Shown here: piece after piece, positions 3,241 through 64,000 of the stretch
Numbering within the stretch: position 1 is the first letter of the stretch
Layout of the letters: each line of letters opens with the position of its first letter
DNA from: Flectonema sp. DT1601
Lineage: Eukaryota; Euglenozoa; Diplonemea; Diplonemida; Diplonemidae
Length of the DNA stretch: 64,000 nucleotides
Direction of reading: 5' to 3'
Assembly: GCA_964019425.1 (NCBI GenBank)
Contig: OZ025860.1
Location: 124,001-188,000 of the forward strand
The notes under the pieces: generated by a model
The model's input: only the letters and a program-made list of their open reading frames with translations
What the model was told of the DNA's origin: nothing
Database searches by the model: none
Program-made: the position numbers and the translations under genes

Positions 3241-3588
3241 GGTGATGAGGTGTTACACGCAGACCGCGTTTATCGATAATGTCTGTCGAGGAGGGGAATT
3301 AGAAATGTAAAAACTCAAATCAAAATGTGACACAAACTCCAACCAACTGAATTGCTTCTACGGTAGAAGTAATCAATAAAAATGACCAATAAAAGCAAAA
3401 CAATAATAAACATGATTTACTACATAAGCGTTGAGAGAACACTAACAAGTAGTAATCATACCTGCGGTAAAACAAGTGAAAGAGATGTTTGTGACCCAGG
3501 TAACTTTCCTCTGAAATATTTCCAGTTTTTTTTTTTTTTCTTCGAGTTTGTGGGTGTAAGAATAATAAATATAACAAAACCAGATTTA
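3241..3588. other. Intergenic spacer, no gene seen
   Basis: The spacer between the FIGNL1 stop and the WD40 start holds a T run at about 3526-3538 and, on the minus strand, a C/T-rich stretch ending in CAG at 3284-3283, about 40 nt before the WD40 start codon. Short open frames here look random. Confidence 0.6.
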
Positions 3589-5729
3589 CTACACATCATC
3601 AAAGAAATGATCGATATCGTCTGGTTTGATGTTGTTTTCAGTACCAAAGCTGCCGTACTCGTCGTTGAACTTTGTGTGGCATTTAATGTCAGCCTGAGAA
3701 ACAGTCGGTTTTACGCATGAAAAAGCATACGCAAAGTCTCGAAGATTGACAGGTCGAACTGCTTCTCGATCTACTTGTTTAATTTTATCTCCCTGTTCTC
3801 GAAGTGAAACAAAAGCTGCCTCTCGGCACAGGATCTTGAGATCTGCACCACTGTACCCTTTACTCTTTTTAACAACTTGAGCTAGTTCTGTTTCAGAGAC
3901 AGTATTCGGTACAGTTTTCAATAAAGAAGTAATAAGTACACTTCTACCGCTTTCTTCAGGAAGTGGAATGTATAATCGCTTCTCCATTCTACGTCTGGCA
4001 GCCTCATCAAGTTCTTGAGGTCTGTTTGTTGCTCCAACAATTAGTATTCTATCTAAACTACAGGTACCAGCACCATCAAGTTGTACCAAGAATTCGGTTT
4101 TCAATCGACGTGTGTGGTCTTGTTCTCCATCACATCTTTGAGTGAGAAGAGAATCTATTTCATCGATGAATACAACAGCCGGTTGTTTTATTGAGGCAAC
4201 GGCAAAGAGTGCGCGGACCATTTTCTCTCCTTCACCAACCCATTTAGACATCAGTGTTGATGCGGATATGTTAAAGAAAGTTGACTGTGATTCACTAGCT
4301 ATTGCTTTACCGATCATCGTCTTACCAGTTCCGGGTGGACCAAAGAGAAGAAGTCCCTTAGTAGGACCACGAATACCATCGAAGAGGTCAGGTCTTTCTA
4401 ATGGCCAGATAATGGCTTCGTAGACTGCACGTTTGGCGTATTCTAATCCAGCGATGTCGTCCCATGCAACGTAAGATGATTCAAGTATTTCATTATTTAT
4501 TGTTGTTAGTAGTTCAGGATCAATGTTCTTTAACTTTTCAGGTACATTACCATCAGCATCAAGCAACTCTGGTGGTATACCCGCAGAAGGATCTTTCTCT
4601 TTGCTGTCAGCATCTTTCTTGGCGGTGCCTCCGTTGTTGGCGTTGCTTTTGTTTTGGTTGGCGACTTCCCTTTCGATGTCCGTTTTTCTGAATGGCGGAA
4701 CGAATCTCTTGACTCTGTTTGGTAACTTTTAAAGAAAGTATAAAACAAATAAATCTAATTAATGAAAACAATAACATACCCGAGAGTCTTACCGCTTGGT
4801 TGTCGACGACGTTCAGGAACTTTTCCTTTTTTCAAATCATCGACTTCAAGTTGACGCGCTGCAGAAACAAAGCCAGACGGAGGTTCTTCGCGCTCACGTT
4901 TAGTCAGATTACTGTTGTAATTCGATTCAATACCTCCACCTCCTCCATGACGAAGAGTATCTCTGTTAAAGAAGTTTGTTGCCCCAGGAATCTCATCATG
5001 TTCATCAACATGATTGGTGCGAAGATTTCGAAGAGCAGACCCACCAACTCTGTCATTAAATTGGTTCGTGTTAGTGTCGTTGTTAGCAGCTCTATTTTGA
5101 AAAAAATCATTATTGTTATTTCTTACTAAAGGTTTGTTAACATCGTTGATATGATTTGTAGCAGAATGATCAGTCTTTGAACGTGTGAAGTTATCACTTC
5201 CATCATCTCTTCTACTTGTTGGATATGTGTTTGTAGCATCTGTTCGTAAGTTGGTTGGTAATTTAATGTTATTTCCATTCCCACTTCCAATTCCAGAAGA
5301 AAATAATGAAGATGAAGACGGTCTATGCAAATCACTAGGTGTTGGTATTGGTGAGTCAGTTTTGAATAATCTCATATTATCTCTTCTCTTGGTTGGTACT
5401 TGTGTAGATTCCAATGGTCTTTTTGATTGAGATCTATTGTAGGAAGAGGTGTTTCCGGTTATTTTTTTATTCCAAATATCTAAAAGATCGTTTGGGTTCA
5501 GACCCGGAATGTTAATTACTTTTTCATTGCTATCTGGATGAGCTGCTATCATGGTTTCTCGAACTACTTTAGCAACTTCCCCTCCGTGAGCATCCAACAG
5601 CTCAGATGATTCGCAAGCAGTTGTATAACTCATTATCTTTCTCGCTTTAATCAATCGATCTTCTTGTACTGATGATCTCTGAACCAGAGTTTGCATTGCT
5701 TTGTTCAGCCATGCAGTCTCAGAAGCCAT
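3589..5729 (-). CDS. FIGNL1: Fidgetin-like AAA ATPase (FIGNL1 type)
   Basis: Two exons, 5729-4780 and 4714-3589, encode 691 residues, close to the 674 of human FIGNL1. The intron has donor GTATGT and acceptor CAG, and splits a Gly codon; after the junction the protein reads VKRFVPPFRK, the conserved FIGNL1 block before the AAA domain. Seen: an FxxA motif (F287-A290, FVSA) at the place where FIGNL1 binds RAD51, Walker A GPPGTGKT at 442-449, Walker B VVFIDEID at about 497-504, and the RRRMEKRLYIPLPE arginine-finger region. Family knowledge: a hexameric ATPase in homologous recombination that takes RAD51 off DNA, related to microtubule-severing fidgetin. The N-terminal 280 residues are Asn/Ser/Arg-rich and probably disordered. 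An acceptor-like CTAG lies at 5742-5741, 12 nt upstream of the start. Confidence 0.93.
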
Positions 5730-6374
5730 TTATAAGGCACCTAGTAACATCAAAAATATTAATAAGATTATATTATTCAGTTTTCTGTCAAGGGATTAGT
5801 CTTTTAAAATGGTTTTTTTTTTTATTGTAGTTTGTGTGGTTCCAGAAGGACCACAATTGTCTTCTTACCGATTATAAATTTATGAATTGTAGTGTAAGAG
5901 TGTAAATGTTTTTTTTTTTTTTTTTTTTTTTTTTGTTTTTTTAAAAACAATATTTTTAAAAAAAAAAAAAAAAGACGACCGTTTTTGCAACGAATTCAAC
6001 GGAAAAAAATTGGGGGAAAAAAAACGAGATTTTCAGATTACTTTTTTCCACTCAACCAACAGGAGAGAATACAACAACAATAATCCATTCTCATGGTAGA
6101 CGGGATTATGGATACTTATCACACAGAATAAAAAAATACTCGTTGCCACACTCGCCATCTAACGAGAGAGTAACTAATAATACTAACTAACATAACCTAA
6201 TTACTAACCAAAAAGAGTGTACTATGTGAAGGAAAAGGGAGGGTGGCAAGATAAAATAAAAATAAAAAATAGTTACAAAAGAATCTTTTTTTGACTACCT
6301 CTCAATTACTTATATTTAGTATGAGTTGAACAACTTACGGATTATCCGACAAAATAAATTGTTGGTAATACGAA
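5730..6374. other. Intergenic spacer with long T and A runs
   Basis: About 640 nt between the IQ-protein stop and the FIGNL1 start. It contains a T run of more than 20 at about 5910-5933 followed by an A run at about 5958-5972, facing each other as an imperfect inverted repeat. No coding frame with protein-like composition was seen on either strand. Confidence 0.6.
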
Positions 6375-6783
6375 TTAACTGTCGTGTAAAAAAGACAGAC
6401 CAGAAGTCATTATTGACAAGCAAGGTGTTTCTTTATTCCCTGCTGCCATCATCAGTTTCAAATTACTTGACGAAATGAAGAGATTCCCAATTCCCTTTTC
6501 AGGTGAAAGTTTCTTTTGAGTAGCCTGCGTATTGTTTAGTGATAATAATGACTACCCTCAATTAATTATTTAATTTCTTATTAAAAAAACAATACAAACC
6601 TTTGCTGCGGCCATTAGAGTACTTAAGCAATAACCAGTAGGGAATGAATCACTGTCTGGGGCCTGTGGACAGAATTCTCTATATACAGCTCCAGCTGTGC
6701 TACTTGGAGAGCTTTCGCCAGATACATAGCCCATCATCATGTTTGCGAATGCAGAGTCGTGAGAAGTGGTGCTAGAATCCTCG

Positions 6784-6825
<42 letters not shown>

Positions 6826-8402
6826 CTATCCCTAATGAAATCAAACTCTGTTGAGGTAGGTGGAGGTGATGTACAATCAACATCCCCAATATCGTTATTC
6901 CTCATCTCTGTGATGTAATCACAAATATCATTCTGTCGCTTCTTAACCTCTTTCTTTGCGGCATACCTCCTGAAACATCTCTGAATTCGTTCAGAACACT
7001 GCTCACCAATGATATCCGTAATTACGTATTTCTTAACTTCTTCTCTCTTCGTATTGTAAATAGAACCAGCTGCTGTATATCTAAACCAACATTGTATCAT
7101 TAGAGCGGCCACAGTGTCCTTTGTTGAGCCAACTGGTTTCTGTGAAAGTAAAACATTAATTTGTTCCACATCAGTTGACTCTGACGACAATACTTTTGAT
7201 CCGACCAATCCGTCCAGCTGCTTTCTCATGCGAGCGACATACTCGCTGGCAGTTTCACTGCGAGTGGCTGCTTGTGAGGGTTCGCTATAAAACGGATCAT
7301 CGCGGGTAGCTGAGGAGAGTAGTTGAAGCTCGAAGGCGCTGAATGTTAATTGTTTGTCAGATCGTTCTTCGCGTTCCTGTCGTTTTATTACATCTCTCGC
7401 CTTTGATTCTGAAATAATACAATGAGACTCCTCAAGAGTTGTGAAATAGTGTTTTGGTATCGGTGACTGGGCTGAGTTGAGACAAAGTGAAATGCTTACT
7501 TGAGAATCAGAGCGTGCTCTGGAAACTTTTGGTTTTTGTTGGACTTTAGACATGCACTCGTCTGGAGAGCGAGGTTCATAACTTGGAGTCTCAGACCTAA
7601 ATCTTTGATTGAATATCATCTCACCTCTCCTCCATTGTCTTATAGGAGATCCATCTTTATCACCATCAGAGTATAAAGCTATTCTACCACTGCTCAGTGA
7701 TACAGGAGCAGCATGAGGAGGAGCAGGGGTAAGACCTGGTGCGAATTGAAGACAAGGTTCACTTCGAGTTGTCTGCTTCAACCCTTTTAGATTACGAGCA
7801 CAGCAACCAGCCCAAGCACCTTGAGTACTTCTGATTATTGATAAGTTTTTCTCATGAGATTCGTTGATTTTAATGTCATCTAAAGAAGTAGATTCCTCAT
7901 CAGAGAGTTTTGATCGATACCTTCTCTCTTCACATGAGATGTGAAGGATTGTTCCTCTGTACTCATCAACGATACGTGATAACGCTGCGAGTGCATCTTT
8001 AATACGTAAGTTGTCCAGTTCAATGACTTCTTCATTACAAATGTTAACTCTCAAGACGGTTTCTTTTATCGCAAAGGTCTCAATATAGTGTCTTCTCTTA
8101 CTTTGACAAAGAACGTGGTATTGACGTTCTAATTGTTCTTCCGTCTGGAGTCCTTTTATTTGTCTTTTTGATGTTAATTCGTACTTCTTTAGCTCTAAGG
8201 AATCTTCAATTTTCTGAAACATTCTGCTCAGCTGGAGCTCTAAATCGCTTCTTCTGGTTCGTTCATGTTGTAAGCAAGTTATTCGTTCATAACTTTCTTC
8301 ACGTTGTAAGTGTGATAAGCCAATGTCGGGGGTGTCACTGTTTTGTGAAAACAGTCTCATCCCCCAATCGTTGCGACAAGTCATGTCTGCCGCGCAGGCC
8401 AT
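6375..8402 (-). CDS. IQ-motif protein with an Asp tract, otherwise unknown
   Basis: Two exons, 8402-6600 and 6524-6375, joined in phase 0 across a 75-nt intron (donor GTTTGT, acceptor CAG), give 650 residues; the second exon adds 49 residues ending SFLHDS. The ATG at 8402 is 6 nt after a strong pyrimidine-tract CAG (8410-8409). Seen: a Glu/Arg/Lys-rich helical first third (LELQLSRM, YELTSKRQIKGL), a Pro/Ser/Arg-rich middle, and two IQ-like helices toward the C-terminus (MIQCWFRYTAA and RIQRCFRRYAAKKEVKKR), which usually bind calmodulin or myosin-light-chain-like proteins. An acidic tract of about 15 Asp follows, coded only by GAT. The family is not recognised; calmodulin binding is inferred from the IQ-like helices alone. 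Confidence 0.78.
6785..6823. repeat. (CAT)13 microsatellite inside the IQ-protein gene
   Basis: About 13 perfect CAT units on the plus strand, read as GAT (Asp) codons on the minus strand. Codon uniformity means this is a plain trinucleotide repeat likely to vary in length between isolates. Confidence 0.95.
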
Positions 8403-8408
8403 ATTCGG

Positions 8409-8440
8409 CTGTGTTAGAGAGATAAAAAAATATAAACAAT
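8409..8440 (-). promoter_or_regulatory. Splice-acceptor-like site 6 nt before the IQ-protein start
   Basis: Minus strand: TATATTTTTTTATCTCTCTAACACAG, then CCGAAT and the ATG. Pyrimidine tract and CAG are of textbook quality. No coding exon with a donor is seen upstream, so this is a candidate spliced-leader addition site or the end of a 5'-leader intron. Confidence 0.65.
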
Positions 8441-11400
8441 TTTTATATTACAACTCAAATTTTTCTTTCATTGGAAAAATCACACCCGGCTTACTAAAAC
8501 GTTTTTAGGTACCGAGAATAAACTTTTTTTTTTTTTTTTTTTTTATTGAAGCCAGTGGAGTCAAAACCCCTGGGGAAGTCCACGGGGTACCAGTAATTCA
8601 GTACACAACCGTGAAACTCTCAGGCGAGAAGAGACGTTTTAACCAGAAGTAATTGACTACTAAGACCCAACGCATGCACGAGGCAGGCAGTACAAGAGAC
8701 GGTTGCATATAAACTTAACCGATTTTCTTTTTTTTCTTTCACAAAAGGAAAGAATGAACAAGGTTTTTTTTTTTTTCCCCCATAAAAAGAATAAAGGAAA
8801 AAAAAAAAAAAAAGAAAAGGAACGAAAAACTAACAAAAGAAAACTAGAGAGAGCTGAGAGAGATAAAATTATTAAATGCCTAAAAAAAAAAAAAAAAAAA
8901 ACTAAAGATGCCCGTTGAAAATTACGTGCACGAACCAAGAAAAAGAACAGCATTCTACTTAACCTCTCAATGAGAGGGTGATAGTTTTGCACACTAAAGT
9001 ACGAAAGTACTAAGAAGATAAACAGACAACATAAACAGCCAACAAGGCTTCACTACCGAATAGACATATTCAGAGAAGCACAAGTATAACAAAAGAGTAA
9101 GGAGAACGCTTCAAGTTATCTTCCCCAGTTGGTAAACAAAGGACCTATCGTCACATACGCTACGAACTGTGAAAGGATGGTAACTAAAAGGTTCCTAAAA
9201 CCCTTTCTTAAACCGATTAATCGGTTTGCTACCATAAACGAGTGGGCAAGAACCTTCGCAATGTGTGCAGACACAGAAGCATAGAATTCAAAGACAAAAA
9301 CCAGGTTAGTGTAGTATTGCAATATTGCTTTCGCTCCTCCTTCCGATCAGGACATCCTCGTTTTAGTTCGCAGAGGGAAAGGATAAACAAAAACAGCACG
9401 AACGATCAGATCAAACGAAACACAACAGAATTGCCTCTCTTGAAGCGAGTGGAGATAAAGTATTCCTAAATATGATAGTAGTCGTCATCACGTGTGTCAC
9501 GGTAGGTGGGATGTACATACCAGACGTATGTAAATTGATTGTTTGTTTCGTTTATTTTATTTTGTACCATCGCGTATATAACATTGGTTAATCGGAGGGG
9601 AAGACTCAACCAATAAGAAAAACACGAATTTATTTATAAAATAATTTAAATTGATAAAAAAAACGACGACTAACAATGCTGTAATGATGTTATGTATAAG
9701 CACTGCATTGTGTAGACGTGATCCGTATTGGGGGACGTTTCGAGAAAGGAAAGAAAATAAGAAATAATAGCTCAACAACTGATAACTCATAAATGAGCAA
9801 CCCTGTCGGAGGATCAATTAATTAGTATCAACCGAACACACTCCCAATGTGAGTATTTAAACGGGACTCGGGGCACGCACACCGCGCAGTTTCATAACAG
9901 CAGTACTCCTTGATGGGAAGAACACAACAAAAAGTAATCCACCTATGAGTCACCCATTCCGATTCCGTGAATACGTAAAAAAACACGGTGGAAACCCAAA
10001 ACATTTTAGACTATTTGTTCGCATTATCGTTTAGACACGTTTGTTTTTTTAAATATTTTGTTCTCGTTGACAATTCTACGGTTGTTCATTAAAAAAAAAA
10101 AACCATTCAGATAAGCAGCCTTACAATATTTTGTTGATCGCAGACAGTATTACTGCCCCACAAGGGAAAATAGGTAACTCTTTCTATCTGAAAAGTTTCT
10201 AATCCGACTTCGTCGGTTCAAAAAAAAAAAGAAAAAAATCAGCGACAGCAGTGACTTGTCGACGAATCACTCTGCCGAACTTATAGTACAAATAAAAATT
10301 GAAGTAATAATCAGGTGAATGCGAAGAGCAAATACCACAACAGCAGTAATGACTGTAACTCTCATCATTACTTTTAATGCGAAGAAACAAATTAGAACAT
10401 TTTTTTTTTTTATCATTTTCAATACGGATGACGTGTGAAAAAGGTAAATCGAGCTAACCTCGTAGTACAAGTTTTGTAATACGTAGCCGCGACGTTCAAC
10501 CGTATTCACAAAATTGAGAGTACTTGTAACAAGTACTCATAAAAAAATAAAAAAATCGGGAAAGAGAGCAAAAAAACAAAACAAAAAAAAATATAAGTGA
10601 CATCAACTGCCACCTTTTCACCTGTTTTATCTATTTCGTATACAATTGTTAATTTTTGAATACTTTTTTTTAATAAAACAGACTGACTATTGAAAGTGTG
10701 GAACCCAACAGGTTCCCATTGAGACAAAATGGTTTCACCATGAGCACGTTCCAAAAGAAACAAAAAAAAAAAAAAAAAAAAAGAGTCCACAAAGACGATA
10801 CTTGCTTGTTACATAATATCACTTGTTGTTCTACTTTTTAGGCGGCTGTCTCTTAAAATCTCATCTGGTTAAACGACAGCAACTCTAGTCGAATAATCGT
10901 ACTAGTTTGTAAGAAAAGAGAAATCAAATAGGATGCTCATGGATGAAATAGATAGACACATACATAAGGAAGTCCAATACAATGCATACTGAGCATCGCT
11001 GATACAGCAAACTAAAGAGAGCATCGGGTTAACTCCCTAGAGCTACGAGGCAACTGCAACGTTATTGGACCCAATCTTATTAAGACTGTTTTATTATAGC
11101 TTCGGCTGACGAATAGATTCATAGGTCTGGACCAGACGTAAAGAAGGATTTCAGAAAAAAAAAGGAGAACACGGTAAGTTTAATGTCTTAGTTAGTTTGT
11201 TGCTCAAGATTATGAGTGGTGATGACATGTGATAAACTCACAGCAGTCTTACCTGCAATGGGTTCTCTTTATTCCGATGAAATAATAGAATGTTATATAA
11301 TCAACAAAAAAAAATTGAAAAAGTAAAATAGACAACGCAAACGTGCGGTTGGGGAGATAAAAAAGAAAGAATACTACTCTCCTTTCATTATGGGAAGAAC

Positions 11401-11516
11401 TCTCTTCGGTTGAAGACAGAAAAGAAAAAGATCGTCAGACGATCATTCTTACGTCACAACGATGTGTCCCCCACGTGATGATAGAAACTAGTATCCTAAA
11501 GGGATGAAGAGATGAA

Positions 11517-11548
<32 letters not shown>

Positions 11549-12362
11549 CCTCCCCAAAAACCCAACAACGGGAAATGAAGAAAAAAAAAAAAAAAAAATA
11601 GAAAGCGAAAAGTTCACCAATTATTAATAGGTTGATGCAAGTAGGAAGAAGTATCGAAAGAATCAAAACGACAACAAAGACAAATCACTGAGAAGAGAAA
11701 TAAACGGAGTACAACATGCTACAGAGTACTACTTGAACGATGCCCAAAGAGCTCTTCAGGGATCTCCAGTACTACTGAAGATATGTTGAATCTCCGAAAA
11801 GGATTATTTGCGTTAATTTCAACACAGGGATGATTAGGTCAGATCAATAACCTACATACGGCTACGGTAGATAAAAGAAATTAATTTTTTTTTTTTTTTC
11901 TATTTTAATTTTTTTTTAAAGTCACTGCTGCAGGATGCGTGACTGAAAAAGAAGAAAAAAAATGAAAAAAAAAAAAAAAAAAATTCTCCTTTATTGTATT
12001 GATAAATTTCACAAAAAAACAACACGAGAGAAACACATTCAACTTTATAATTATCACAAAAATGAATTTTTTTTTTATTTCTTTTTAAAAAAAAAAATAA
12101 ACAGAAATAGAAATAGAAATAGAAGAATCAAAAAAAGAATTATATATAGCCTGAAAAACACCACTTACAGTGGTATCTCGGAATTGGAAAAGGAGAGGCA
12201 ACAAATGAACAACCGAAGTTCACGCAAAGAAATATGAGAGGGAGAGGATCTTCACAGGGAATACTCACGAACTAAGAATTCTCACATTTGCTGAAGCAAA
12301 GTAAGGTAACTAAAAACTACTTAAGTTAGAATCATTCCCTGTGTAAAAAAGAAAAACGAGAA

Positions 12363-12478
12363 AAAGAATCGGCAATCTCACTAAATAATCCACACTTTGT
12401 TTTTGTTTATGCGCAAACTAGAAACAAACCTATAAAGTAAAAAAAAGTGTTAACGTTACGCTGCCACAATTCTCTTTC
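12363..12478 (-). repeat. Copy 1 of a ~120-nt dispersed noncoding sequence
   Basis: Shares with 17341-17463 the blocks AAAGAATCGGCAA, CACACTTT, TGCGCAA and the 24-nt end GTTACGCTGCC...CTCTTTC in the same order, with drift between. On the minus strand both copies end GCCGATTC followed by a T run, which would suit RNA polymerase III termination. Orientation is chosen on that basis only. It could be a small RNA gene, a SINE-like element, or a shared 3' flanking element; this copy begins about 140 nt downstream of the cyclase-like gene stop. Confidence 0.6.
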
Positions 12479-12618
12479 GCTCGTAAAAACATGTCTTCGA
12501 GATGAAAATAAAATCACGACAAAAAATTTGACAAAAAAAAAAAAAAAAAAGGTAGAAGCAATAACAAAAAAATACAAGCAAAAAAATAAAATAAACAAGA
12601 AAATAAAACAAATACAGA

Positions 12619-15319
12619 TCATGTGTACCGAAAGTTCTCTATAACAAGGGGTTCACGACAATTAATAGCGTCTATTACTTTAGTGACTTCTTTTATTTGT
12701 GAAAGAGACATCAGCTGTTCTAGTTTATCAGTTAGTAGAGGCCAGTCAGGTGTAGGGTTGAAGATTTCTTTGACTGCCGTATTCCAATAGATCCACTTAT
12801 CATTACGCTCTCCTTCAGCGAGGGCGTACATCCATTCTTCTTCAGAGATTTTACGTTCTTCTGTCAGTTCGAATATTGTTGTCGGAGATGATGAAATCTT
12901 TTCAAAGTTCAATGGAAACATTGCTCTGAAAGCCATCTTACTATTCGCATCTTTTACGAGATATCCATTAGCGAGAATTGAAACATTATTCCATCTGGCT
13001 AGTCGTTCTAAAATATAAACCAGAGACACACACTTTCCTATGTATGAATATTTCTTCATTCCCTGACATCCCATATTACCAGTCATTACTGAGCCGTACA
13101 CTAGCCCTGATGATATTCGTAATCCTTGATTCTCAGCCAATAATGTATCTCTGATAGTTATAACAGTTTTAGATGCGGCGATGGAATGAGCACCGCAAGG
13201 TCTAATCGCGTTAAACGCACAGAGTATACGATCCCCATTGAATATATCAGGTGTCCCACCATTGTTTCCAACAATTCTCATTATCGTTCCCACAATCGTA
13301 GCATGAGTTTCTGTTATACAAGTTTCTGTTTCAGTATTTTCAAGAAAACCATGAAAATCAACGACATTTATATAAGCCAAAGTACACTTTTTCTTTTTAA
13401 GACTGGAGTCTTTGAGACATTGATGATGACCACTATTCAACCCAGCCTTAAAAGAGCTACTAATTCCCATACCCATAGTGAGTGACGCATTAGATAAGTT
13501 GATTGTTAGAGTTGATGGTTGTCCGCTATTAAAACTATTGCTGTCGACATTACCACGTGTGGGAGTGTTTCCTTCACTGTAAACACTTTCGTCATCAGAT
13601 GTTTGAATCTGATCAAGCATGGATTGAGGTAAATAGTTTCTGTATTCTAAAATAGCATTAGCCATCGTCGCGAATGAGGTTTGCATTCTTCTTAACTCCG
13701 ATAAAGATGACAGTTCTCGAACTTCGTTTAGATTTTCTAAATTCATACTCGCAACCTCATGCATATCATGAGCTAGTGATTGCAAAGGTGCTGTAATTTG
13801 AGTAAAAAACACCGCCGTCACCACGACTATCAAACATATTGACGCTGCGAGCACACCAATTGTGACAAAGTTTGAAGTCTGTAGATTTTCATCAGTTTTT
13901 TTCTCTTCTTCCTCGATAGTTGATCGAACCTGTTGAGTTGCTTTTGTGATTGTTGCCATGGCAACGTCTCTGGGAACTAATACAATCGCATAGAGTCTCA
14001 ACTCAGACTTACTTCCAATTGTCTCATCTGTTATTAATTGTAACTGAACCCAATAAGTTGTTCCGTTATTTGAAATCCAATCAGGAGCTGAGGTACTTCC
14101 ATTGTATGTGAGGTTGTAAAAAGACTTTTCAAAACCAGTCTCTATTGATCTCTGAACCATGAACGTAGAGTGTTCTTTAATAAGATGATCCTCAACTGTT
14201 GAAGCATTCGCTGGAAGTCTGCTGGTCAGACCATTGACGTCAATGGTTGATATCCAGGACTTCCCGTGAGAAGTCGCAATTATTGAATCTTCTGTTTGAA
14301 GCCAAGAGTCTCTTTGAATCAGATATAATCTTGAACCAGTCGGTAGGGACAATATAGATTCTTGTAGGAATTTAGACATTCGGTCCACGTCAATTGAACA
14401 AACCACCATCACACTCGGTGAGAAGAATAAGTGAGAATTACCTTTTATAATTGCTTTATAAGCAGGTATTCCTAATAACTGATTCTTACTCTCGATTGGA
14501 CCCCATCCGAGTACTCCCGGGTTAGAACTAAAAGTATCAATCCAACTAAGAATACCTCTTCCAGTTGAAGCTGCTAGTCGACACAGAGATGGTTCAGTGT
14601 AGAGATCTGGAACACATGGAGCGACAATTATTTTTCCTCTTTCATCTGCTAAACCGTGATCTACATGAGTCGCGTTGTAGTTACCAACAGCAAGTGCTGC
14701 TTGTAATTCACTTGGTGACTTACCTTGAAATTCCGATCCGAGAATTTTTTCTCCAAGTGGAATATTCTTTAAACCTTTACTGTACACTGCGTCTGATGCG
14801 ATATAAAAAGTCATAGCTGTGTTTGATTGTTGTGTTATAAATAATCTGATCGTGACAACATAACAAAAACACTAATATAATCATACCCGTAGTAAACGAT
14901 GATGACGTCGCAACTAGCAAGTCTGTAACACCTCTATTAGCACCCCATTTAACAAAGTGATGAATCATAGGTTTAATTGTAGTGTTTAACATTAATTCAT
15001 CGTGAGTTGCGTTACCCTCACCCATTCCATTAGCTCTCATAACTCCAGAAAGGAAGTCGACTATGTAGGGTTGCATACCAAGAAATCCTCCTATCGATGA
15101 TTGAACTTCAGAACCAACAGTGCTCATTAAATCGTTAGCTATCAGTAAGACGTTTGATGTTCCGCTGTCAAAGCATCTGGTTAGTCCTTGTTCACAGTTT
15201 GATTTCGTATCATCAAGAGCATTATTACTACTGGTCCACGTTAAACTCCAAGCGATCATCGATGATGATAAAATTCCAAATATTGAAATGAATACTGAAA
15301 GTGATCTAGCAGACACCAT
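12619..15319 (-). CDS. Membrane receptor with a degenerate class III nucleotide cyclase domain
   Basis: Two exons, 15319-14887 and 14816-12619 (donor GTATGA, acceptor CAG, Gly/Ala codon split), encode 876 residues. Seen: an N-terminal membrane segment at about 5-27, a glycosylation-rich extracellular part of about 430 residues, a second membrane segment at about 461-483, a HAMP-like helix with the motif F-x-x-M-x-x-A-I-x-x-[FY]-x-x-Y-L-P typical of protist cyclases, and a cyclase fold from about 620. Both metal-binding Asp are present (D631 in VDFHGF, D673 in NGDRI). The catalytic helix reads GKCVSLVYILERL (738-750) where GDxVNxAxRxE is expected, so the transition-state Asn and Arg are replaced by Ser and Ile. 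Ligand sensing is likely and cyclase activity doubtful; it may act as a pseudoenzyme or dimer partner. Confidence 0.87.
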
Positions 15320-15504
15320 TTTTATTATTTATTTATTTGTTTATTTTTATTTTTCGTGTGTAATACGAAACTGTATTTTGGGGGGGAGGAGAAGAAATAA
15401 CTTATTAGACAGATTTACGTTGGCTTTAATATTGGTTAGTTTTTATATATTTTGTTGATTATCAAACAAATTACTTCGTCTCTAAATAAAAGACGTGGAA
15501 GTGG

Positions 15505-16647: not shown

Positions 16648-16660
16648 TTTTGTGACCAAC

Positions 16661-16680
16661 CTGACAAAAGGAGATAAACC
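16661..16680 (-). promoter_or_regulatory. Splice-acceptor-like site before the cyclophilin gene
   Basis: Minus strand: GGTTTATCTCCTTTTGTCAG, 13 nt before the ATG. Confidence 0.6.
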
Positions 16681-43174: not shown

Positions 43175-43246
43175 AAAATAGAGAAACCGATCGGTTGTCC
43201 CTTTTCAACTGTTAAAATATAATTTTATCATCCGCAGGGCGAAAAG

Positions 43247-43279
<33 letters not shown>

Positions 43280-45454: not shown

Positions 45455-45487
<33 letters not shown>

Positions 45488-45800: not shown

Positions 45801-45840
<40 letters not shown>

Positions 45841-50931: not shown

Positions 50932-51176
50932 CCCTTCAACAGGGACAGTTCTTACAACCGGCTGGGAAAATAAAGTAATAAAACAAAGTTATTTTTTGAT
51001 AAAAAAAAATTTTTTTTTTTAAAAATGTCTGTAGTATTTTGATGTGTTGTGAGGGTCCGTCCTGTTTAAATAATAACAAATATTAAAAAAGTTGAAAATA
51101 TTTTGGGTATTTACAAAAAAAAAAAAAATACTATTCGTTTTGCAAAACAAGTGTAAATGGATAAGGTGCGAAAAAG

Positions 51177-54100: not shown

Positions 54101-56511
54101 ATATATATAACGTTCCATCATCAAGACCTGCGAATACCCTATCCTCAATAGGACTATTGACAGCAAGTGATGTCACTACTTCATTACAAGTGAATAGAAT
54201 TCGCAATGGTATTCCTGTTTCTCCATCCCAGAGACGAACATGATTGCTTGCTGCTGTAATAATCTGTTTGCGGGTTATTAAGAGGCAGGTTGCCGCGACA
54301 GCGTATTGTTCTGCTTCTCCAAGACTTACTTTCTTTTCAATTTTTTCATAATTTAGTAACTGCAGTGACCCCGCAGCTCCGTCTGCACCTCCACACGTTA
54401 AAATCATTTTATTCTTCTCAAAGTAGAAAAGGTCTGAAAAACTTTCTCTACCGTCAACACTAGAAGCTTCGACATCTTGTTGACGTTTCATTTTTGTAGC
54501 GAAGGCGCTGCGTTCGTTGGAGTCTGCTGTGCGAGTTCTCGCATTTGGAGAACAGTTAACAGTGTGTACTGATTTCAACATCCTCAAGTCCCACACCTTC
54601 AAACATCCTCTACAGTCTATTGATAATAATTGAGGTGTATTAGGAACACAACACAGCTTTGAAATCTTTCCCAAATGCGGATCTGGATCTCTCAGTATAA
54701 GCGGCTTCGGAGCCATCCCACAACTTGGTACCCACAGGTACGGATACGGCTCCTGACCAGAAGACGCTATGAAATTATAATGTTGAGCATAATCCATACA
54801 ATGAACACCTGATTTTGATTTGTATTTTATTATTCATTTTCTCACTTTATGTAAGCCGTTAAGATGATGAAATTCATACCTTGTGAATGACCAATTAATT
54901 TAGTAATTGGTTTCATAGAGTGGGGGTTTGAAATACAAATAGAACTATCTAAAGAAGCTGTCGCTAACATATTATCAGGCAACAGTAAGAAGCATGAAAT
55001 AGCTCCAGAGTGGACAACGGTATTGCTAATTTCTTTTGAGCAATAGTCGCTACCGATTTTAAGCCAGATGACACGACCTTGTCGGCTTCCGCAGAGGAGC
55101 TTTGATCGATCCCGTTCGAATGTAAATAATGAAGTTTGACTAACCTTCAAGTTGGTAACAGAATACTGATGGGTAGTACCTGTTATGATTGTTTTGTTGT
55201 TACTTTTTTTTTTTTTTTTTTTTTTCAAGATTTGTTGAAGACAAGACAAACATACCAATATCATATAACCGAACACATCCATCTGATGTTGATGTCGCTA
55301 GAACGTGATTGCCTTGTGTCCCAGGTAGTAATATGTCAAGGTCGAGAGTCTTGCCATAGTTTATATCCCAGGGATATGATTGAATAACTCTCATACCAGT
55401 CGGGTTTACTAGTCTGCAGATATTATCCTTTCCTAAGAATATCATTCTCGACAACCCATCAATATATCTAATCTTCCTCAATCCTTTTATTGCTGCACCA
55501 CTTCCACATGTTCGTTTTGAGCCTGGTGTTGTATCCACTCGACCAGTTTTATAAGTTGTTAAAATATAAGATCGGATTAATGGGGTCAATTGATCCTGTT
55601 TTTTGGTTCTTAGATGTACGAAGTCAATAAAATTTGTATTAAAAACATCTCAAGAGACATACATGATAAAAAGAATCATTTTTAATTGACGCTCCGATTA
55701 AATAAGCGTTTAGATCTTCCCAAGTGATTTCATCTTTTGAGTTCATGTCAATTTCAGAAAATAGTGAAGCAAGAGACCATTCAGCAAAGCGATTGGTACC
55801 AAGATAATCCATCGAGTGTTGAGAAGAAGGTCTCGATGATGATAACGCTGCCCATTCATGCATGAGAGTAGTTTCACGAGAGCGAATCGCACTGCGAGTG
55901 TTGTAAGATTTTATGATTCTTTCTGATAGCTTCCAAGTATCATTCTGAGTTGTGTTCTGTTGTTGTAAACTCCTTCGTGTTTGAATTAGTTTCATCATGT
56001 TATCAACAAATTCAAATCCTCGAAGGGTTTGTCTCTCACTCTTTAAAAAGATTTTTTTAATCGGTTCCGTGTCCCCCAACAATTGCAAAACTGATATCGC
56101 AAATGCTCTTGACGATGGTTTCCAAGCTCTCTGTGAGTCTGATGGAATTCCCTTTCCAACAAAAGCGGTTTCTAATTTTGCCATTCTCTCTGAATGAGAT
56201 CCACCAGCATCGCTCTGAACTATCAGTTGTTGTGGTTCATGAAATAGAGAAGTAGTTTGTATTGATGAATCGTTCTCTTGTTGTTTAAAAATGCTGTTCC
56301 AAAAATCTTCACTTTTCTCATTTTGATCGTGTGTTGATATTTTTTTCTTTACAGTTGCTTGCTGTCTGTCAATCCTCGAGACGTCATCACTTCTGTATAA
56401 TAAATCATCGCAAGTAGGACTATTTTCAGGTTTTCTATGTGGTTCCCATTTCACAACCGACGGAAGAGGAGATCCGAGTGTATACTTCCTTTGAGAATCT
56501 TTAATATACAT
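51177..56511 (-). CDS. EF-hand / WD40 protein of the WDR49-WDR64 type
   Basis: Four exons, 56511-55663, 55595-55256, 55179-54880 and 54808-51177, stay in frame for 1706 residues; donors are GTATGT or GTATGA and acceptors CAG. I start at the first ATG after the acceptor CAAACAG (56531-56529); an upstream coding exon is not excluded. Seen: an EF-hand near residues 245-275 (EIDMNSKDEITWEDLNAYL), then a WD40 array from about 330 to 900 (LASTSDGCVRLYD-type blocks, GHSQGVHCMDYAQHYNFIASSG, CRGCLKVWDLR, NHVRLWDGETG, CAVRFWSMWGRLLGKL), then a long Ser/Arg-rich, mostly disordered tail. The EF-hand directly before two propellers is the WDR49/WDR64 plan, found mainly in ciliated organisms. Its precise role is unsettled; an axonemal location is inferred. 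Confidence 0.85.
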
Positions 56512-56809
56512 CTTAATTTCATTATTTACTGTTTGAGAATAGTTATTTTCATACACTTCTCTCTTTAGTTTTATTTATATTGCTCTTTTTCTGTAAAAGG
56601 AGACTTGGTAAATTTATTATTTTTTGTATTCTCAAAAAAGGAGATACGTTTCTTTTTTTGAAATAATTCAAAAATTGAAAGCTAGAATGCAGCAAAAACA
56701 GGTTTGCAGTCATCGTGACTTCAGAATACCCAATAAAGGTTTCAGGTACACATTTACAGGTGTTCCTGACTGGCTTGGTGATCAAACAGGTGGATAGATG
56801 TCAGTGGTG

Positions 56810-57595
56810 CTAAGTACCCCCTGAAGTGACCACTCTGTGGGGGTGTACATTACTATTTTTCATTCCCTTTGACTTCGGATTTCTAGGAGGAATGTACATC
56901 GATGAACTCTCGTCAATAGTTCGAAGCTTCCTTAATCGATCCTCCATTTTCTCAGCGAAGGCTTCAGTAACATCAGGTCTGAGTGTTGGAGGCTGTTCAT
57001 GAGACCATCTTCTACGACAGCCAGTAAAACACAAGTAAACATATGTCACTACGAAGAATGGAATGATAGCAGGTAGTGCTGAAGGAGAACCTCCAAAAAT
57101 AGCTGTCAGTGTGAGAGACTTTTCAGTACAAGTAGGAAGTGACCATTGAGGTTGACAACTATTGCAATTAGGACCCTGCCAGTGTCCAAGTTGATTAGTA
57201 TTCCAACATTGACATGTTCCGTCTCTACCACAGCAACCAAAATTACATTCAAGGTTTTCACATAATGGATGCGGTACCTCATCTGTAGTGCATACTGTAC
57301 AAGTTAACCCTAGAGGACTGTGTGGTGAGGGAGGGAACGATCCTGCAGTCAAGACACACCTCCCTCCACTCACTTGCACAAATTCTGGTGCATTTTGTTC
57401 TATACCGTTACAAATACACCTCAACTCTAAACCACTTGAAGTTATAGAACAGTCGTGCTCCATAATTCCTCCGTAACGAACCATCTCTGAGCAGATTCCA
57501 GCTGCAGTGTCGCATGATGGTGGACAGTCAAACTCAAGTACAGCTCTCGGAGCTGCAGTTGCAATTAATAATACGATTGGTAATAATATTATCAT
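56810..57595 (-). CDS. Cys-rich single-pass membrane protein (EGF-like)
   Basis: Single exon, 261 residues. Seen: signal peptide (MIILLPIVLLIATAAPRA), about 22 Cys over residues 24-155 including an EGF/laminin-like run (LECNFGCCGRDGTCQCW...GPNCNSCQPQW), a membrane helix at about 175-193 (PAIIPFFVVTYVYLCF) followed by a basic stop-transfer (CRRRW), and a cytoplasmic tail of about 65 residues. A surface receptor or adhesion protein is likely; ligand unknown. A strong acceptor CATTCTCTCAG ends at 57608, 12 nt before the start. Confidence 0.85.
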   Translation of the reverse strand: MIILLPIVLLIATAAPRAVLEFDCPPSCDTAAGICSEMVRYGGIMEHDCSITSSGLELRCICNGIEQNAPEFVQVSGGRCVLTAGSFPPSPHSPLGLTCTVCTTDEVPHPLCENLECNFGCCGRDGTCQCWNTNQLGHWQGPNCNSCQPQWSLPTCTEKSLTLTAIFGGSPSALPAIIPFFVVTYVYLCFTGCRRRWSHEQPPTLRPDVTEAFAEKMEDRLRKLRTIDESSSMYIPPRNPKSKGMKNSNVHPHRVVTSGGT

Positions 57596-58617
57596 TTATC
57601 TTGAATCCTGAGAGAATGATTAAAAATAAATAAAATAATGTCGAACAACAAAAAAGTTTGTTGTTAATAAATTATCAAAGTCACTAATTTTATTATTTTT
57701 AGTAGACTCGAATGAAATGAAAAAAAAAAAAAAAAAAAATCAATTAGTATTAATAATGTATGTTCCTTGAATTCAGCTGCACTGCTATGCAAACAATGAA
57801 CAACCAAATGAGAAGAAGAAGAAAAAAATGCTGAAAACTACTTTAGAACGAGATGTTGCTGACGTTTTTTTTTTTTTTTTTCTTCTTCTTTCCTTACTCC
57901 TTTTATCCTTGTTGTTGTTGTTTTTATTTTTATTTTATTTTTTTTAAAAAATTTATCTTTCTTCCCACCTTCAAAAAGAAAATATCGAAGTAGAATTGAA
58001 GTAGGAAGTTGAAGTCAAAAGCACTGCCAGCAATAATGTTTTCTTGGAAAGCTGCACGCACTGTCTGTTTTTCTCGTAACCATTCTTACTTTTAAGAACC
58101 GTACGATCCTTTCTTTTATGTGAACTAAGGATTTCCTCTTCTTGTCACTTTTTCATTTTTTTTATTGCATTTCCGGGCAAGAAATATTCGTAAGTTTAAA
58201 TTAAATTATTTTGCACTCGTTAAATCATTCTTCGTAGAAGAAGATTATACGAGTTTGCAAGCAGGAAATCAACACGTTTCCATACGCACTGAGGGGAGTG
58301 GGTTTGTTTTTTTGTGAAACTTGCGAGACATTGGAAAAAAAAAAAAAAAAAAAAAAAATCAATAATAACTTGAAACAGAAAGTATACATAACCCTCACAA
58401 AAAAAAACGGGTAGCTTTCCAAAAGTTAGGACCACGATTGGTGTTGATTAGCATTCGCAAGGGAAACTGCTGAATGTCAACGAGTCCTAACACAGATGAT
58501 TACAACGGGAACAACTTATTGTGTTGGTTAGGATGCTCACTTCGTACTCGTATCTAGTTATTAATTTGTATTTTATGTTACTAAACTAAAAGTCAATACA
58601 TCGAAATAATAATCGAA
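57596..58617. other. 1-kb spacer, no gene seen
   Basis: A runs at about 57720-57739 and 58334-58357, T run at 57866-57880. It may include the 3' end of the GH65 gene if the alternative splice noted there is used. Confidence 0.55.
57608..57625 (-). promoter_or_regulatory. Splice-acceptor-like site before the EGF-like membrane protein
   Basis: Minus strand: TTTAATCATTCTCTCAG, 12 nt before the ATG. Confidence 0.6.
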
Positions 58618-61600
58618 TCATACCTTAGCTGCTTCACTCAATACGTGACATAAAATATCTGGTGTTGGTAGAAATAATGATCGTGGACATAAACTAGATA
58701 CCTGTTGTCGATTGTTGTTTAATGTTTAAATTAATTATATCGTGGGTGATAATGAGGATTACATACCTTTTTTTGAAGCTCTTTGTCTTCAGTAACAAAT
58801 ATGACGTATGTTCCTGTCGCATTTCTCTCCATTGCTTCTCGTACCATAGGGAGGTCCCCAGAGGTGTCACCCGTCACTAGTACTGGTCCGGAGTCGAGAT
58901 CGAGATTGAGTTCACCTGATAGCCAATGGAGACCATCACCCTTGTCGAATCCACGAGTCTTATCTCCAGATTCGTTTAAGGGCATTATCTCAATATCTAG
59001 TTTGGTGTCAATTACTTCGAAACCATTCGGAGCTACTTCTTCACAAACACTCTTAACCTTTGCCATAAACAGTTCACTCTCTTTCCTTCTGATTGTGTTG
59101 TAAATGTCTTGTCTTGCGACAGTCGTTTGCGCAAATTTCAACTGCAATCCACTTCCTATCATCATAAACTTTGTGTAGTCAGGTAGTCTACAGAGGTCAC
59201 TTATCTTTTGGTTAAGTTTCGCCATCTTAAGCTGCTCTTCTTCAGTGATGCAAAAAGTTCGTCTAAACCCAGCTTTATCAATGTACTCTTTTCCTTTAGA
59301 ACCAGCGTATACAAAAGTTGTTTCATAATTGACAGAAACATTAACGATTCCTGGGTTAGCGAGGGGTGCGGATGTAATGAAGACGGCGTTGTCACAACAC
59401 AATGCGAATCTTGTTATCCAAATACTGTTATAAACAGACTGAACAGAACTGTTGTATCGACCACAGTAATTATTAGTCGTACCATCCCTGTCAGTTATCC
59501 AGTTGGTAAACTTTACTCCCGAAAGGAAGTCGAGACCTTTCTTAAGCCAAACATCAAAGTCAGGAAACAGCGGCTTTAGCATCGAATCGATGAGCGCTTG
59601 TTCACCTCTCTCAATAAGACAAATGTCTTTTCTCAATTCTATTATTTCATAACTCAGATCGCAGTCAACTCTAGTTCCACTAGAACCGCCTCCAATCCAC
59701 AGCCGCGCTTTACCACTTTCATTCTTTGGAATGTCTACGAGACAGCGTTCGACATGTCTGAGGATTTCAAGTTGTTTTCTGTCACTCAGAATGCTGTTTT
59801 TAAAGTACGAATTACACATCATTTTCCTGTGATGCCAAGTCTTATGCATTAGATCGTAGAACTCAGCTATCTTACAGAGACTATCATGTTGAATGGTTGC
59901 AGGTGTCCAAGGTCCAAGCTGAATTTTTGAATGTCCAACACGGAATGTGATTGGCTCTTCTCCATCTCGTATATCACCTTCAAGGCAGAGTCGTATACTG
60001 CGAGTGTCAACCTTGATTGAGTAGTTGTAGCCTCTGATTTTTGTTTTTAAGGAAACAGAATTCCAATGAGATGGTAGGTTTGGAGTTATACACCAATTGT
60101 TTTCAGATTCTTCACGAAGACCAACAAACCTTGAGGATATAAATGAAAGAGATCCAGCCATTACTGACATGTGAATACCTTCTCCTGTGATACCTTCCTT
60201 GTTGTAAATATCAGATCGTGAAGCTTCAGACCACCAAGACCATTGGTCTGAAACCTCTCCTAACTCTGCTGCTAAGTGAGCATGTACTAATAAACTTAGG
60301 GTACTTCCATCATTCGTTCTCGGAACATAAAAATCAAAATTAGACCTCAAAAGGTCAATTGGTGTTATCTTTTCATTCAAAGTAACGGATTTTTGTTTTT
60401 TTATAATCGAGAAAACCTCTTCTTTCGACAGAAGATGCCATGCTAGCAGCGTGTCGGCTTGTTTTAAGATTTGATACTCGCTGGGATTTTTATTATCAGC
60501 GATCATTATTAGGTCCATTCTAGAGATATCACGACAGGTTTGTTTGTATTTCGATAAATACAACTCTTGAAGGTTAAAGAACCCGTCAAACTGTTCCACA
60601 ACGTTCTCACCACTAATAGAAAGACTGATATTGGTTGAAATATCCAACCACAAATCCAAATCACTTTCAGTAACTCCAGCAGCTACACACGTTTCATTTG
60701 ATGCCTGCTTAGCTACGTCAATTGCTTTACATAAAAGCCACACAACCATTATATTCGTATAGGCGTTATTTGAAACTCCTCGATCTTTATCTGTTCCAGC
60801 ATCGTGGAATTCGTCTGGACCCATGACATCCGTTATGTGATAAAAACCATCGTCCTTTTTGTGGCATATTGACCCCCAGAAGACTGCAATACTAAGCATC
60901 AGTTCATCATATTCATCTCCAGTCTCACCAGTTCTTCGTTGGTATAAACAAGTATCGTAGAAGATTGCAATATTGACGTGTCGTTGTTTGTGAGATCGGT
61001 CTTGATGCCACTTCTTATTGAATGGGTTGAAATGAACTTGTTGAGTAACTTCAGCACCAGAATACGCAGTTTGCCATGGAAACATTGCTCCACGATAACC
61101 AGCCTTAGCTGCTTCAGCTCTAGCTCCAGGTAATCTTGCAAATCTGTAGCTTAAGTGACCCTGGCAGATTTCAGGAAAACTAGTGCTGTAGAATGGAAAT
61201 GCGTATAATTCGTCCCAAAAGATGTGTCCTCTGTACGCTTCTCCGTGGAGTCCTCTAGCTGGAATCCCCACGTCAATGTCTGCCAAGTGTGTTGAAGCAC
61301 TTACAAATAAATTATAAATATGACACCTTGCTATTTTTTGAGATGCTCGGTCACCTTCAATCACTATATCGGTACTCTCCCAGATGTCATGCCAAGCCTG
61401 TCTGTGAGGATCAAGTAAACGATGATAACTAACACAATCGTCTAGGGCGTACAGACTAAGGTTGACAAGCCCTCGAAAACTTCCTTTTAAATGATAGTCT
61501 GGTGATGAAGTATTGCTTCCTGGTTTTGGTATTATTTTAAGTCCGTTCTGTGTTTGAATGTCAGAACCGTGTCTCAGTTTGTTCAATTCAGCAGCAATCG

Positions 61601-63512
61601 CAACAGTCGGACATAACTCTGTGAATGATGCTCCTCTTATTCTTGATAAGTGAGTACTACTTCCGTGGTGAGTTAGTTTTTGCCATTGCTTCCTTTGAAC
61701 AAAATTATCTTTCTCTTCGTTTGCACGTTTTAGTGCAGATTTTGCTTCAGCTGAACTTTCAGAACTATCCTTAGAGCAGTATACTGATATTATTTTGTCA
61801 AGTCTAAAAACTGATTCGTGTTCATCAGTTTGATTACTATCAACGTAGGCAGTGAAATCTTCAAACACGATATTATTAATAAAAGTCGCACCAGTGTTAG
61901 TTATAGGTTCTGTTGAATCACCCTGAGTAAGTGACGCAGTCTGATGAACTGAAATCGCAATTCCTGTTTTTGGATCCTCAACTTGAGATAGGACATAAAA
62001 AGGAGTACCAGCTCCACCAGGTTGTCCATACTCCTTGAAAGTCAAATGATCTGACGTCAGTCCTCGATAACGAACAACTCCATCATTTTTAACTGAAGCA
62101 TCAACTCCACTTCTAATAGTTATGACACCTCCGTAATTAATTGGTGTAAACGTGAACTGAATTGCTGCTAAATGAAGAGTTTCCATACTCACGATACGAG
62201 AGCTTTCAATTCTACTTATTCTACCCTTTTCATCTCTTATTGTTAATGACCTTTCCATTACCGCGTCGTGAAGATTTAGTTGATGAGTATAACCTAGTAT
62301 TTCACAATCAACTGGACTAATAAATTCATCACTTGAGATAGACACTCTAATGTATGACCAGTCAGGGCAGTTGACGAGGTCAGTGTTGCATATTTCTTCA
62401 GTCTTTCCGTCGTGGGATATTACCGAAAGAGCCTTTGAGTAACAACCATTGATGTAGTGTCCGGGATAGTGAAGTAGATTTCCGTCAGAGTCAGAGGTTG
62501 CAGAGTAACATTCAAAACAACCTCTGCTAGAGATGTATCCATTACCAACAGTTGAGAGAGTTTCTCGTTGTGATTCAAGTAGGGGGTTGTATGCGTTGAA
62601 GGCAATTTTCCAACTGTCTTTTTGAACACCTTTAACAAACCATCCTAATAATGTTAGTAGTTTAACGGTACTGATGTCAGACGTAACAAAATCAGCTGAA
62701 GCAACATCTTGAATCGATGCATCTTTATCAGTTATTGCAATCACAAGACCAAAATTACCTTCTCTTGCTGCTTGTACTCCTGCTGTTGTTGTCTCCACAG
62801 CTATCGTTTCAGCCGTACCAACTCCCAGATCACTACATGCTCGTAGAAGGGAATCCGGACTTGGTTTTGCTCTGTGTCTGTATTGCCACATTACAGACAT
62901 GTCAACTACTGATTGAAACAAATATCCCAACTTCGCCTTCTCCAATAGTAATGACACATGCTCTGAACGAGAAACAATACCCAGAGTAACTCCATTAGAT
63001 TGTAATCCTTTAAGAAATGTTTTCGTAGATTCAAAAACAGTAAAGTCTCTGTCGATAATATGAAGCAATTTAGCTTCTCGCAACTTATCAAATGCGAATA
63101 TTGTATTTGTAGCTGGTGGATCGTCTGCAGTACCCCAAGGGAGGTTGATATTTCTAGATTTTAGTATAGTTTCGATACCCTGTTCGCGAGATGCTGCATT
63201 GCTCATTGTAATGTGATCATCGATTGATAGCAGAGGTGCATTTTGTTCTTTGAGCCAATCATTAAAAACTGCTTCCGAAGCGGATGCTACAAATGCCGAA
63301 TAAGGAATCAGGCAATCTATGTCAATTACGGCTGCTTTGACATGAAGTTGTAGATCTCTGATGTCGGGGTCAATTTGAAGAAGCTCAAACCCCATCACCG
63401 ATCCAGGAGTCATTGGAGTCTCTGGACGTGCTACCACCAACCCTTCTCCATTTTCTGTGCTCTCCGTGCTTGCCACGGATGATATCTCCACGTTCAACTC
63501 GTTCATTGACAT
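58618..63512 (-). CDS. HAD - GH65 disaccharide phosphorylase - HAD fusion enzyme
   Basis: Exons 63512-58767 and 58701-58618 (donor GTATGT, acceptor CAG, phase 0) give 1609 residues. Three domains are seen. First, a beta-phosphoglucomutase-like HAD at about 58-285 (VIDIDCLIPYS, SRSEHVSLLLEKA, KPSPDSLLRACSDLGV, VETTTAGVQAA). Second, a GH65 domain at about 301-1200 (ETLSTVGNGYISSRG, FWDELYAFPF, GYRGAMFPW, and VMGPDEFHD, with E901 at the general-acid position). Third, a second HAD at about 1330-1609 like trehalose-6-phosphate or sucrose phosphatases (ITDRDGT, SAPLA, KGDGLHWL, GDTSGDLPMV). GH65 phosphorylases split trehalose-type or maltose-type sugars with phosphate to beta-glucose 1-phosphate; the first HAD would turn this into glucose 6-phosphate and the third would act on a sugar phosphate. 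The first HAD has Thr where the fourth motif normally has Asp, so its activity is uncertain. A donor-like GTATGA directly before the stop leaves another short exon possible. Confidence 0.87.
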
Positions 63513-64000
63513 CTTTTTTCAACCACTATTGTTGTTGTATTAGTGCATTGGAGAAAGATACTAAAGACCTGTTTTTTATATTTTTGAAAAAAGGGTGACA
63601 TTGCAACAATAACAACAACAACAACAAAAAAAAACTTTTCTGATTGTTCAACACGACGACGGTACAATTGGAAACCCTCTCTGAGGAGGTATAAAATTCC
63701 TTATATTTAACAGGTTTTTAGATTTTTTTTTTTTTTTTTTTTTTTTGGAAAAATCTTGGTTTTTTTTTTTGAACTAATACTACACCCACCATGCAAATAA
63801 CAGCACATTCATCAGGTCAAAAATTGACTTTTTCATGTAAAAACAATTATAGGCATGGGGAAAAGAGACGGAGGCTTAGTGCAATTAGAGCACTGAAAAA
63901 AGCCGTATTATCTTCCTCTTTTTTTCTTTTTTTATTATTATTTTTTTTTTACATTTGTTAAAAGTTTTTTTTTTTTTTTTTTTGATAGTACTGATTTTGC
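63513..64000. other. Right-edge spacer with T runs
   Basis: T runs at about 63724-63746 and 63966-63983. Contains the acceptor-like AATAG (63527-63526) before the GH65 gene. No gene seen to the window edge. Confidence 0.6.

Follow-up and report, generated by a model that had tools for sequence, protein, structure and literature searches.

What are the AG dinucleotides that stand just before the start codons of a one-way gene array? The stretch of DNA analysed here (the window; 64 kb, positions 124001-188000 of contig C81 in a genome of 89.5 Mb and 92 contigs) carries its genes almost entirely on the minus strand. The original prediction for it held that nearly every start codon is preceded by a splice acceptor, as would be the case if a spliced leader (SL) were added by trans-splicing. 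Our results make it very probable that the 21 AGs named there are 3' splice sites of outrons and are used for SL trans-splicing. SL addition at these AGs is supported by SL RNA genes found in the genome, by the junctions of probable retrocopies and by the distinct composition of the acceptors.

The SL of kinetoplastids has the core ACAGTTTCTGTACT.TATTG, a motif that served as search pattern. A 20-nt pattern modelled on the spliced leaders of Euglenozoa, searched in the whole genome with up to 2 mismatches, is found at 754 places and at 0 when reversed. When a 33-nt pattern over the exon and the GT donor is used instead, there are 621 places (at most 1 mismatch), again with 0 in the reversed control. 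The anticipated tandem SL RNA gene is present in the genome: among the matches listed there are tandem units of 623 bp on contig C16 and 610 bp on C20, and a 5S ribosomal RNA gene is located beside the SL in each of three scanned units of locus L028. The SL exon has 39 nt, AACCAACGATTCTAAAGCTACAGTTTCTGTACTTTATTG, after which comes the donor side GTACAG. The first 114 nt of the SL RNA fold at -31 kcal/mol as compared to -18.7 for shuffled sequences (z -4.37). In the predicted fold the donor pairs with CUGUAC of the exon, and by eye a U-rich stretch, AAUAUUUAG, lies between two predicted stems. U2 small nuclear RNA (snRNA) genes have 9 matches genome-wide; of the eight U2 loci examined, one has neighbouring U1 and U5 snRNA genes and another a neighbouring U5 gene. 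A triple SL-5S-U2 repeat was not found: the L028 units have 5S and SL only, and 5S is absent from the eight U2 places examined out of nine (3.2 kb each). Note that the SL array at C20:1248665-1318631 has recurrent intervals of 1695 bp (an extra 1085 bp each) besides its 610-bp units, and that its orientations are opposed on either side of about 1292-1306 kb, in both cases among the matches listed.

The same exon is also found joined to other sequence. At 73 places genome-wide (L039-L068 and L082-L124; 0 in the control) the next base after the 28-nt end of the SL is A, C or T, and all of these places were examined, 30 as loci and 43 as 441-nt pieces. By downstream sequence the 73 junctions form 17 groups, i.e. 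families of 21, 13, 9, 6, 5, 4, 3, 2 and 2 members and eight singletons, each with a genomic copy of the exon at its 5' end. The SL is complete back to CCAACGATT in 67 of the 73. In 38 of the 73 the first ATG is no more than 100 nt away and begins a frame of 60 codons or more, as compared to 255 of 2000 random places in the loci read. Judged by these sequences, the dispersed SL exons are probable SL-tagged retrocopies and resemble inserted complementary DNA. In six cases the AG to which the newer SL is attached belongs to an older SL relic (five times CTACAG/TTTCTG and once AAAG/CTACAG, the slash marking the junction).

One of these probable retrocopies is L051, a singleton on contig C17 with a 306-amino-acid protein kinase (Pkinase, E 4e-79). 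Used as a DNA query, L051 matches its own place and, on C18, two pieces of a single parent (3 matches in all). The parent reads ...TTTTTTATCAAATTCCAG (ending in ATTCCAG) and continues with the same base that follows the SL in L051; its junction, TTTATCAAATTCCAG/CCCCTCC, falls at the SL boundary of the copy. Four stretches of about 70 nt in the parent are absent from L051; two of them were delimited as GT-AG introns, 72 and 75 nt long, and the others are seen as BLAST gaps. Since introns are lost and the SL begins at the AG of the parent, L051 appears to be a copy of a processed message. Its template was most likely an RNA whose introns had been removed and to which the SL had been added at that AG. 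In a second pair, L066 has the SL where L076, L078 and L079 read CCTTTCCTTAG/CAAATTT. Joining of the SL at an AG of the parent sequence is therefore seen in two parent/copy pairs. In the family of L048 and L057 the 5' end carries the SL, and of two reading frames the second has a weak match to endonuclease/exonuclease/phosphatase in Pfam (E 0.0015-0.007). Its members are perhaps retrotransposons without long terminal repeats whose RNA is trans-spliced; the match lies below the curated cut-off and the label "LINE-like" (after long interspersed nuclear elements) is therefore only a judgement.

In the window itself, an AG is present on the minus strand at all 21 named positions, at 20 of them exactly, while 39937 is really 39936. 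The base before the AG is C in 18 sites (CAG) and T in 3 (TAG). Among 946 AGs in the sense-strand intergenic gaps it is C in 0.21, T in 0.22, A in 0.375 and G in 0.20, a pyrimidine preceding 43% of them. The description of the sites as usually CAG after pyrimidines is accurate, with a pyrimidine content of 64% in the 20-nt tracts. The claimed distance of 2 to about 90 nt between AG and ATG is right at its lower end; the first ATG lies 2 to 51 nt downstream, and 86 nt is reached only at site 18798, where the gene finder prefers ATG 18711, perhaps the source of the earlier upper figure. At sites 56529 and 39936 the first ATG differs from the coding one. Closeness of an AG to the ATG was rejected as evidence because random upstream points have an AG at a median of 13 nt (11 nt for the 22 predicted starts). 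As the 21 sites had been chosen by the earlier reader, a blind test was made: for each of 22 predicted starts the closest AG on the upstream side was taken and its 20-nt tract scored. These tracts are 56% pyrimidine; the figure is 48% for upstream points taken at random (p=0.01) and 45% for 235 in-frame ATGs inside genes (p=0.0004). The statement that upstream coding exons are not evident is confirmed at the two starts that were set against those of relatives: proteins of four relatives begin at the same methionine as Hus1, and the relative P0006 begins at nearly the same methionine as the gene starting at 63512, so that no coding exon seems to be missing there. The genes do, however, contain cis introns.

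These cis introns offer a comparison within the same genes. There are 22 of them in window models of score at least 25, and 21 were used as the cis set; one with A before the AG was left out, and the low-scoring model 24913-25159 (one intron) was excluded. Examples on the minus strand are the introns GTATGATT..AATCAAACACAG at 14817..14886 (70 nt, with an A-rich end) and GTATGTAA..AATCGACAACAG at 58702..58766 (65 nt). The gene finder scores the donor, the base before the AG and the intron length; the A content of the tract is not scored. In the 20 nt before NAG, pyrimidines make up 64% at the 21 start-site AGs and 38% at the 21 cis acceptors (p 7e-6), and A makes up 30% and 58%, respectively (p 7e-7). 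The two acceptor sets thus differ plainly in composition, and the blindly chosen nearest AGs differ from the cis acceptors as well (A content p 5e-6, pyrimidine content p 8e-4). Ras-family genes in other parts of the genome (13 pieces) provided 14 held-out cis acceptors, each chosen by eye where an exon boundary separates two pieces of the domain; these are 66% A and 31% pyrimidine. Six minus-strand introns in the flanking 40 kb have similar A-rich ends. Another held-out set, 10 starts and 11 introns from the flanks, gives noisy values (pyrimidine p=0.04, A p=0.17) because the genes are few and antisense shadows are included. It is conceivable, though we would put it at somewhat less than an even chance, that there are two opposite 3' splice-site codes, T/C-rich for trans-splicing and A/C-rich and pyrimidine-poor for cis-splicing, and that the tract tells the spliceosome SL addition from exon joining. 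If this is true, different tract-binding factors perhaps act on the two. Should the contrast extend to the whole genome, the way in which one spliceosome separates its acceptors would become testable.

Could the AGs instead end ordinary cis introns in 5' leaders, with a leader exon and a promoter just upstream of each? The genome has what this would need, i.e. cis introns and U1, U2 and U5 snRNA genes, and the contexts of 63526, 56529 and 18798 are A-rich or mixed and resemble those of cis introns. Local donors, the outcome that the original prediction named as contrary to SL addition, were looked for. Some GTATG, GTATT or GTAAGT is present within 45-160 nt of 5 of the 21 start-site AGs (16 of 21 cis acceptors), but GTATG proper, 40-160 nt upstream, is found at 0 of 21 as compared to 15 of 21 cis acceptors, a cis figure that is partly built in because the gene finder favours GTATG. 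The tract composition is opposite to that of cis introns, and in five genes the gap between the upstream stop and the ATG is only 185-298 nt. Moreover, the retrocopy of a host gene has the SL, not a local exon, at the corresponding position. Leader introns were rejected as the origin of most of the AGs on the donor and tract evidence, and as a general explanation we regard them as very improbable.

It might also be argued that AG is simply common enough to precede any ATG and that no splicing occurs there; the short distance from random upstream points to the nearest AG agrees with this, as does the selection of the sites by eye. Since blindly chosen tracts still differ from two controls and both resolved retrocopy junctions fall at such AGs, chance deserves hardly any credence. 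A further possibility is that the scattered SL exons are the tag of a repeat or mobile element and not a product of trans-splicing. The families of 21, 13 and 9 copies account for 43 of the 73 junctions, and in three of the 73 (L055, L112 and L086) the sequence upstream of the SL and its foreign body is that of the SL RNA gene itself, TTTTTAAGGTTAACCAACG, which suggests either an insertion exactly at the end of the SL exon or that a retrocopy has recombined with an SL RNA gene. On the other hand, the SL ends at the same base in 17 mutually unmatched groups, one of them the intron-less kinase copy whose parent has an AG at that very base, and the same exon with its GT donor stands at 621 places. 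We consider a repeat tag exceedingly unlikely.

Several observations weigh against SL trans-splicing at the window AGs. The 21 sites were picked by the earlier reader for their pyrimidines, and their comparison with the gap AGs is biased. Four of them (18798, 22182, 56529 and 63526) are weak or cis-like. Two pairs of the 21 cis introns are near-identical copies in a tandem duplicate, so that 19 are independent. Most SL fusions belong to repeated families, the three largest of which make up the 43 mentioned above, and 35 of the 73 junctions are without an early open frame. Only two parent/retrocopy junctions were resolved, neither from a gene of the window, and the L066 sequence is itself repeated (36 matches). 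L042 and L121 repeat 10 nt of the SL at a place that is not an AG, and L048 repeats 13 nt of it a few bases past the junction. No SL-like sequence is found in the 64-kb window, which is expected and uninformative. The junctions are known from DNA alone, from which we infer SL addition at each individual AG of the window.

If SL trans-splicing is the correct reading, gene expression here could proceed as follows. Genes in one-way arrays would probably be transcribed as polycistronic RNAs. The SL RNA, a separate transcript with genes at about 600 places, many of which lie in tandem arrays of 5S and SL, would provide its 39-nt 5' exon (...CTACAGTTTCTGTACTTTATTG) by means of its GT donor, and the spliceosome would link this exon to a good AG that follows a run rich in pyrimidines and lies between a few and about 50 nt ahead of the ATG. 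Joining of the SL would cap the mRNA and release the message from its precursor; both the polycistronic transcription and the source of the cap are what we infer. Presumably the same spliceosome removes the cis introns, which are mostly 65-110 nt long with GTATG donors and A-rich ends. As our analysis indicates, genomic DNA by itself can suffice to establish SL trans-splicing when an SL RNA gene is found and retrocopies of SL-capped messages can be compared with their parents.

Gene by gene, the sites vary in quality. The following putative trans-splice acceptors, like all sites below, are on the minus strand: 3283..3284 (42 nt before ATG 3240, behind a pyrimidine-rich tract), 5741..5742 (11 nt before ATG 5729 of an AAA ATPase gene, 3589-5729, with one 65-nt cis intron), 8409..8410 (6 nt before ATG 8402), 15371..15372 (51 nt before ATG 15319, with 185 nt from the upstream stop to the ATG), 16661..16662 (13 nt before ATG 16647 of a four-exon model), 24597..24598 (14 nt before ATG 24582), 26180..26181 (13 nt before ATG 26166 of Hus1) and 29965..29966 (28 nt before ATG 29936). 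A likely acceptor at 31470..31471 is 18 nt from ATG 31451, which opens a 113-amino-acid frame without a gene model. Further along the array, acceptors of the same kind are predicted at 35904..35905 and 38470..38471, each 36 nt before the ATG (35867 and 38433) of one copy of a tandem duplicate, at 39936..39937 (an AG earlier stated as 39937; coding ATG 39898), 41096..41097 (11 nt before ATG 41084; stop to ATG 218 nt), 42128..42129 (30 nt before ATG 42097), 45283..45284 (9 nt before ATG 45273), 50962..50963 (30 nt before ATG 50931; stop to ATG 245 nt) and 57608..57609 (12 nt before ATG 57595). Among the weak candidates, 18798..18799 is 2 nt before ATG 18795 (pyrimidine 0.50, A 0.45), 22182..22183 has a purine/poly-A context and a better site may lie further upstream, and 56529..56530 (pyrimidine 0.45, A 0.50) belongs to coding ATG 56511. 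The candidate at 63526..63527 is A/C-rich, ends in TAG and looks cis-like; a CAG after the T-rich stretch CCCTTTTTTC, about 55 nt before ATG 63512, may be the true acceptor instead.

The array fills the window (1..64000, minus strand, 21-22 models by the gene finder). A first version of the gene finder fused neighbouring genes via false introns, and a tightened version was used. That the array runs one way is borne out by 22 minus models and 1 plus model of score at least 25, the latter (score 29) being antisense to a minus gene. The flanks, 20 kb on each side, are minus-biased too, with 5 minus models and 5 plus models antisense to large minus genes. ATG 54797 is probably internal and joined to the upstream gene via a probable 71-nt cis intron, GTATGAAT..AATCAAAATCAG, at 54809..54879 (minus strand), which was chosen in one of two gene-finder runs. 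The gene at 43295-44056 has no acceptor among the 21 named AGs. The tandem duplicate mentioned above comprises two 570-amino-acid models on the minus strand, 33847-35867 and 36413-38433, 2566 bp apart, with the same three-exon structure and, by eye, a signal-peptide-like start; the pieces tested have no Pfam match. Two large multi-exon models about 10.7 kb apart, apparently tandem copies as well, lie just past the low end of the window (L069 and L070, C81:104001-124000). Positions 8500-12600 and 29970-33800, the second of which contains the candidate acceptor 31470, are long stretches without good coding models in an otherwise dense array.

The source organism is taken to be a diplonemid (Euglenozoa), on the strength of two window proteins whose best matches are EukProt entries and Diplonema papillatum. 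Hus1 (25333-26166, minus strand) has four database matches, three EukProt proteins with 95%, 56% and 46% identity and one of D. papillatum with 50%. For the trehalose-phosphorylase-like protein of 58731-63512 the best outside matches, its own window entry left out, are EukProt proteins (81%), and among matches that carry a species name D. papillatum comes closest (57%, across 43% of the query). A third query, the protein of 51177-54797, found its own copy and weak WD40 matches only. The SL exon and the acceptor rule are now usable for start-site annotation in this diplonemid.

Kinetoplastids have one-way gene arrays and a pyrimidine tract before the AG, and both are found here together with the kinetoplastid SL core. 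SL trans-splicing is known from kinetoplastids such as Trypanosoma and Leishmania, and a general statement on it is given in PMC8061765. Kinetoplastids are extremely intron-poor (PMC12621601), whereas many of our gene models have introns. Euglena gracilis is similar in having cis introns and outrons within one genome, but there a C-rich tract is common to outrons and conventional introns (PMC11170887), while in our genome the acceptors of cis introns are rich in A and those at start sites in T and C. In six diplonemid species the introns likewise have GTATG donors and CAG ends; in Diplonema japonicum A is the most abundant base before the 3' site, and the median intron length is 41 nt as compared to mostly 65-110 nt here (PMC12621601). 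In the parts of that study available to us no outron analysis was found, and the listings, abstracts and passages covered gave no published report that diplonemids have A-rich acceptors for cis-splicing and pyrimidine-rich ones for trans-splicing. Dinoflagellates have SL relics upstream of retroposed genes, sometimes with several SLs stacked (PMC6050394). Our SL-tagged copies are alike in kind; they are euglenozoan, have a different SL and belong mostly to repeated families. The same range of literature gave no report of SL-tagged retrocopies in diplonemids, and the terms retrogene, retroposition and retrocop do not occur in the main text of the D. papillatum paper (PMC10161547). D. papillatum differs in genome size (about 280 Mb as compared to 89.5 Mb) and in its SL-5S-U2 repeat unit (PMC10161547), whereas the three L028 units here consist of 5S and SL and the U2 genes are found elsewhere; the triple unit seems to be absent in other diplonemids as well (PMC10161547). 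In other respects D. papillatum is alike. There the SL is present on essentially all mRNAs, and its 39-nt exon, tandem SL RNA genes linked to 5S, one-way gene clusters and combination of cis introns with trans-splicing (PMC10161547) all have their counterparts in the genome studied here. The mechanism is real, and it is already known from euglenozoan relatives.

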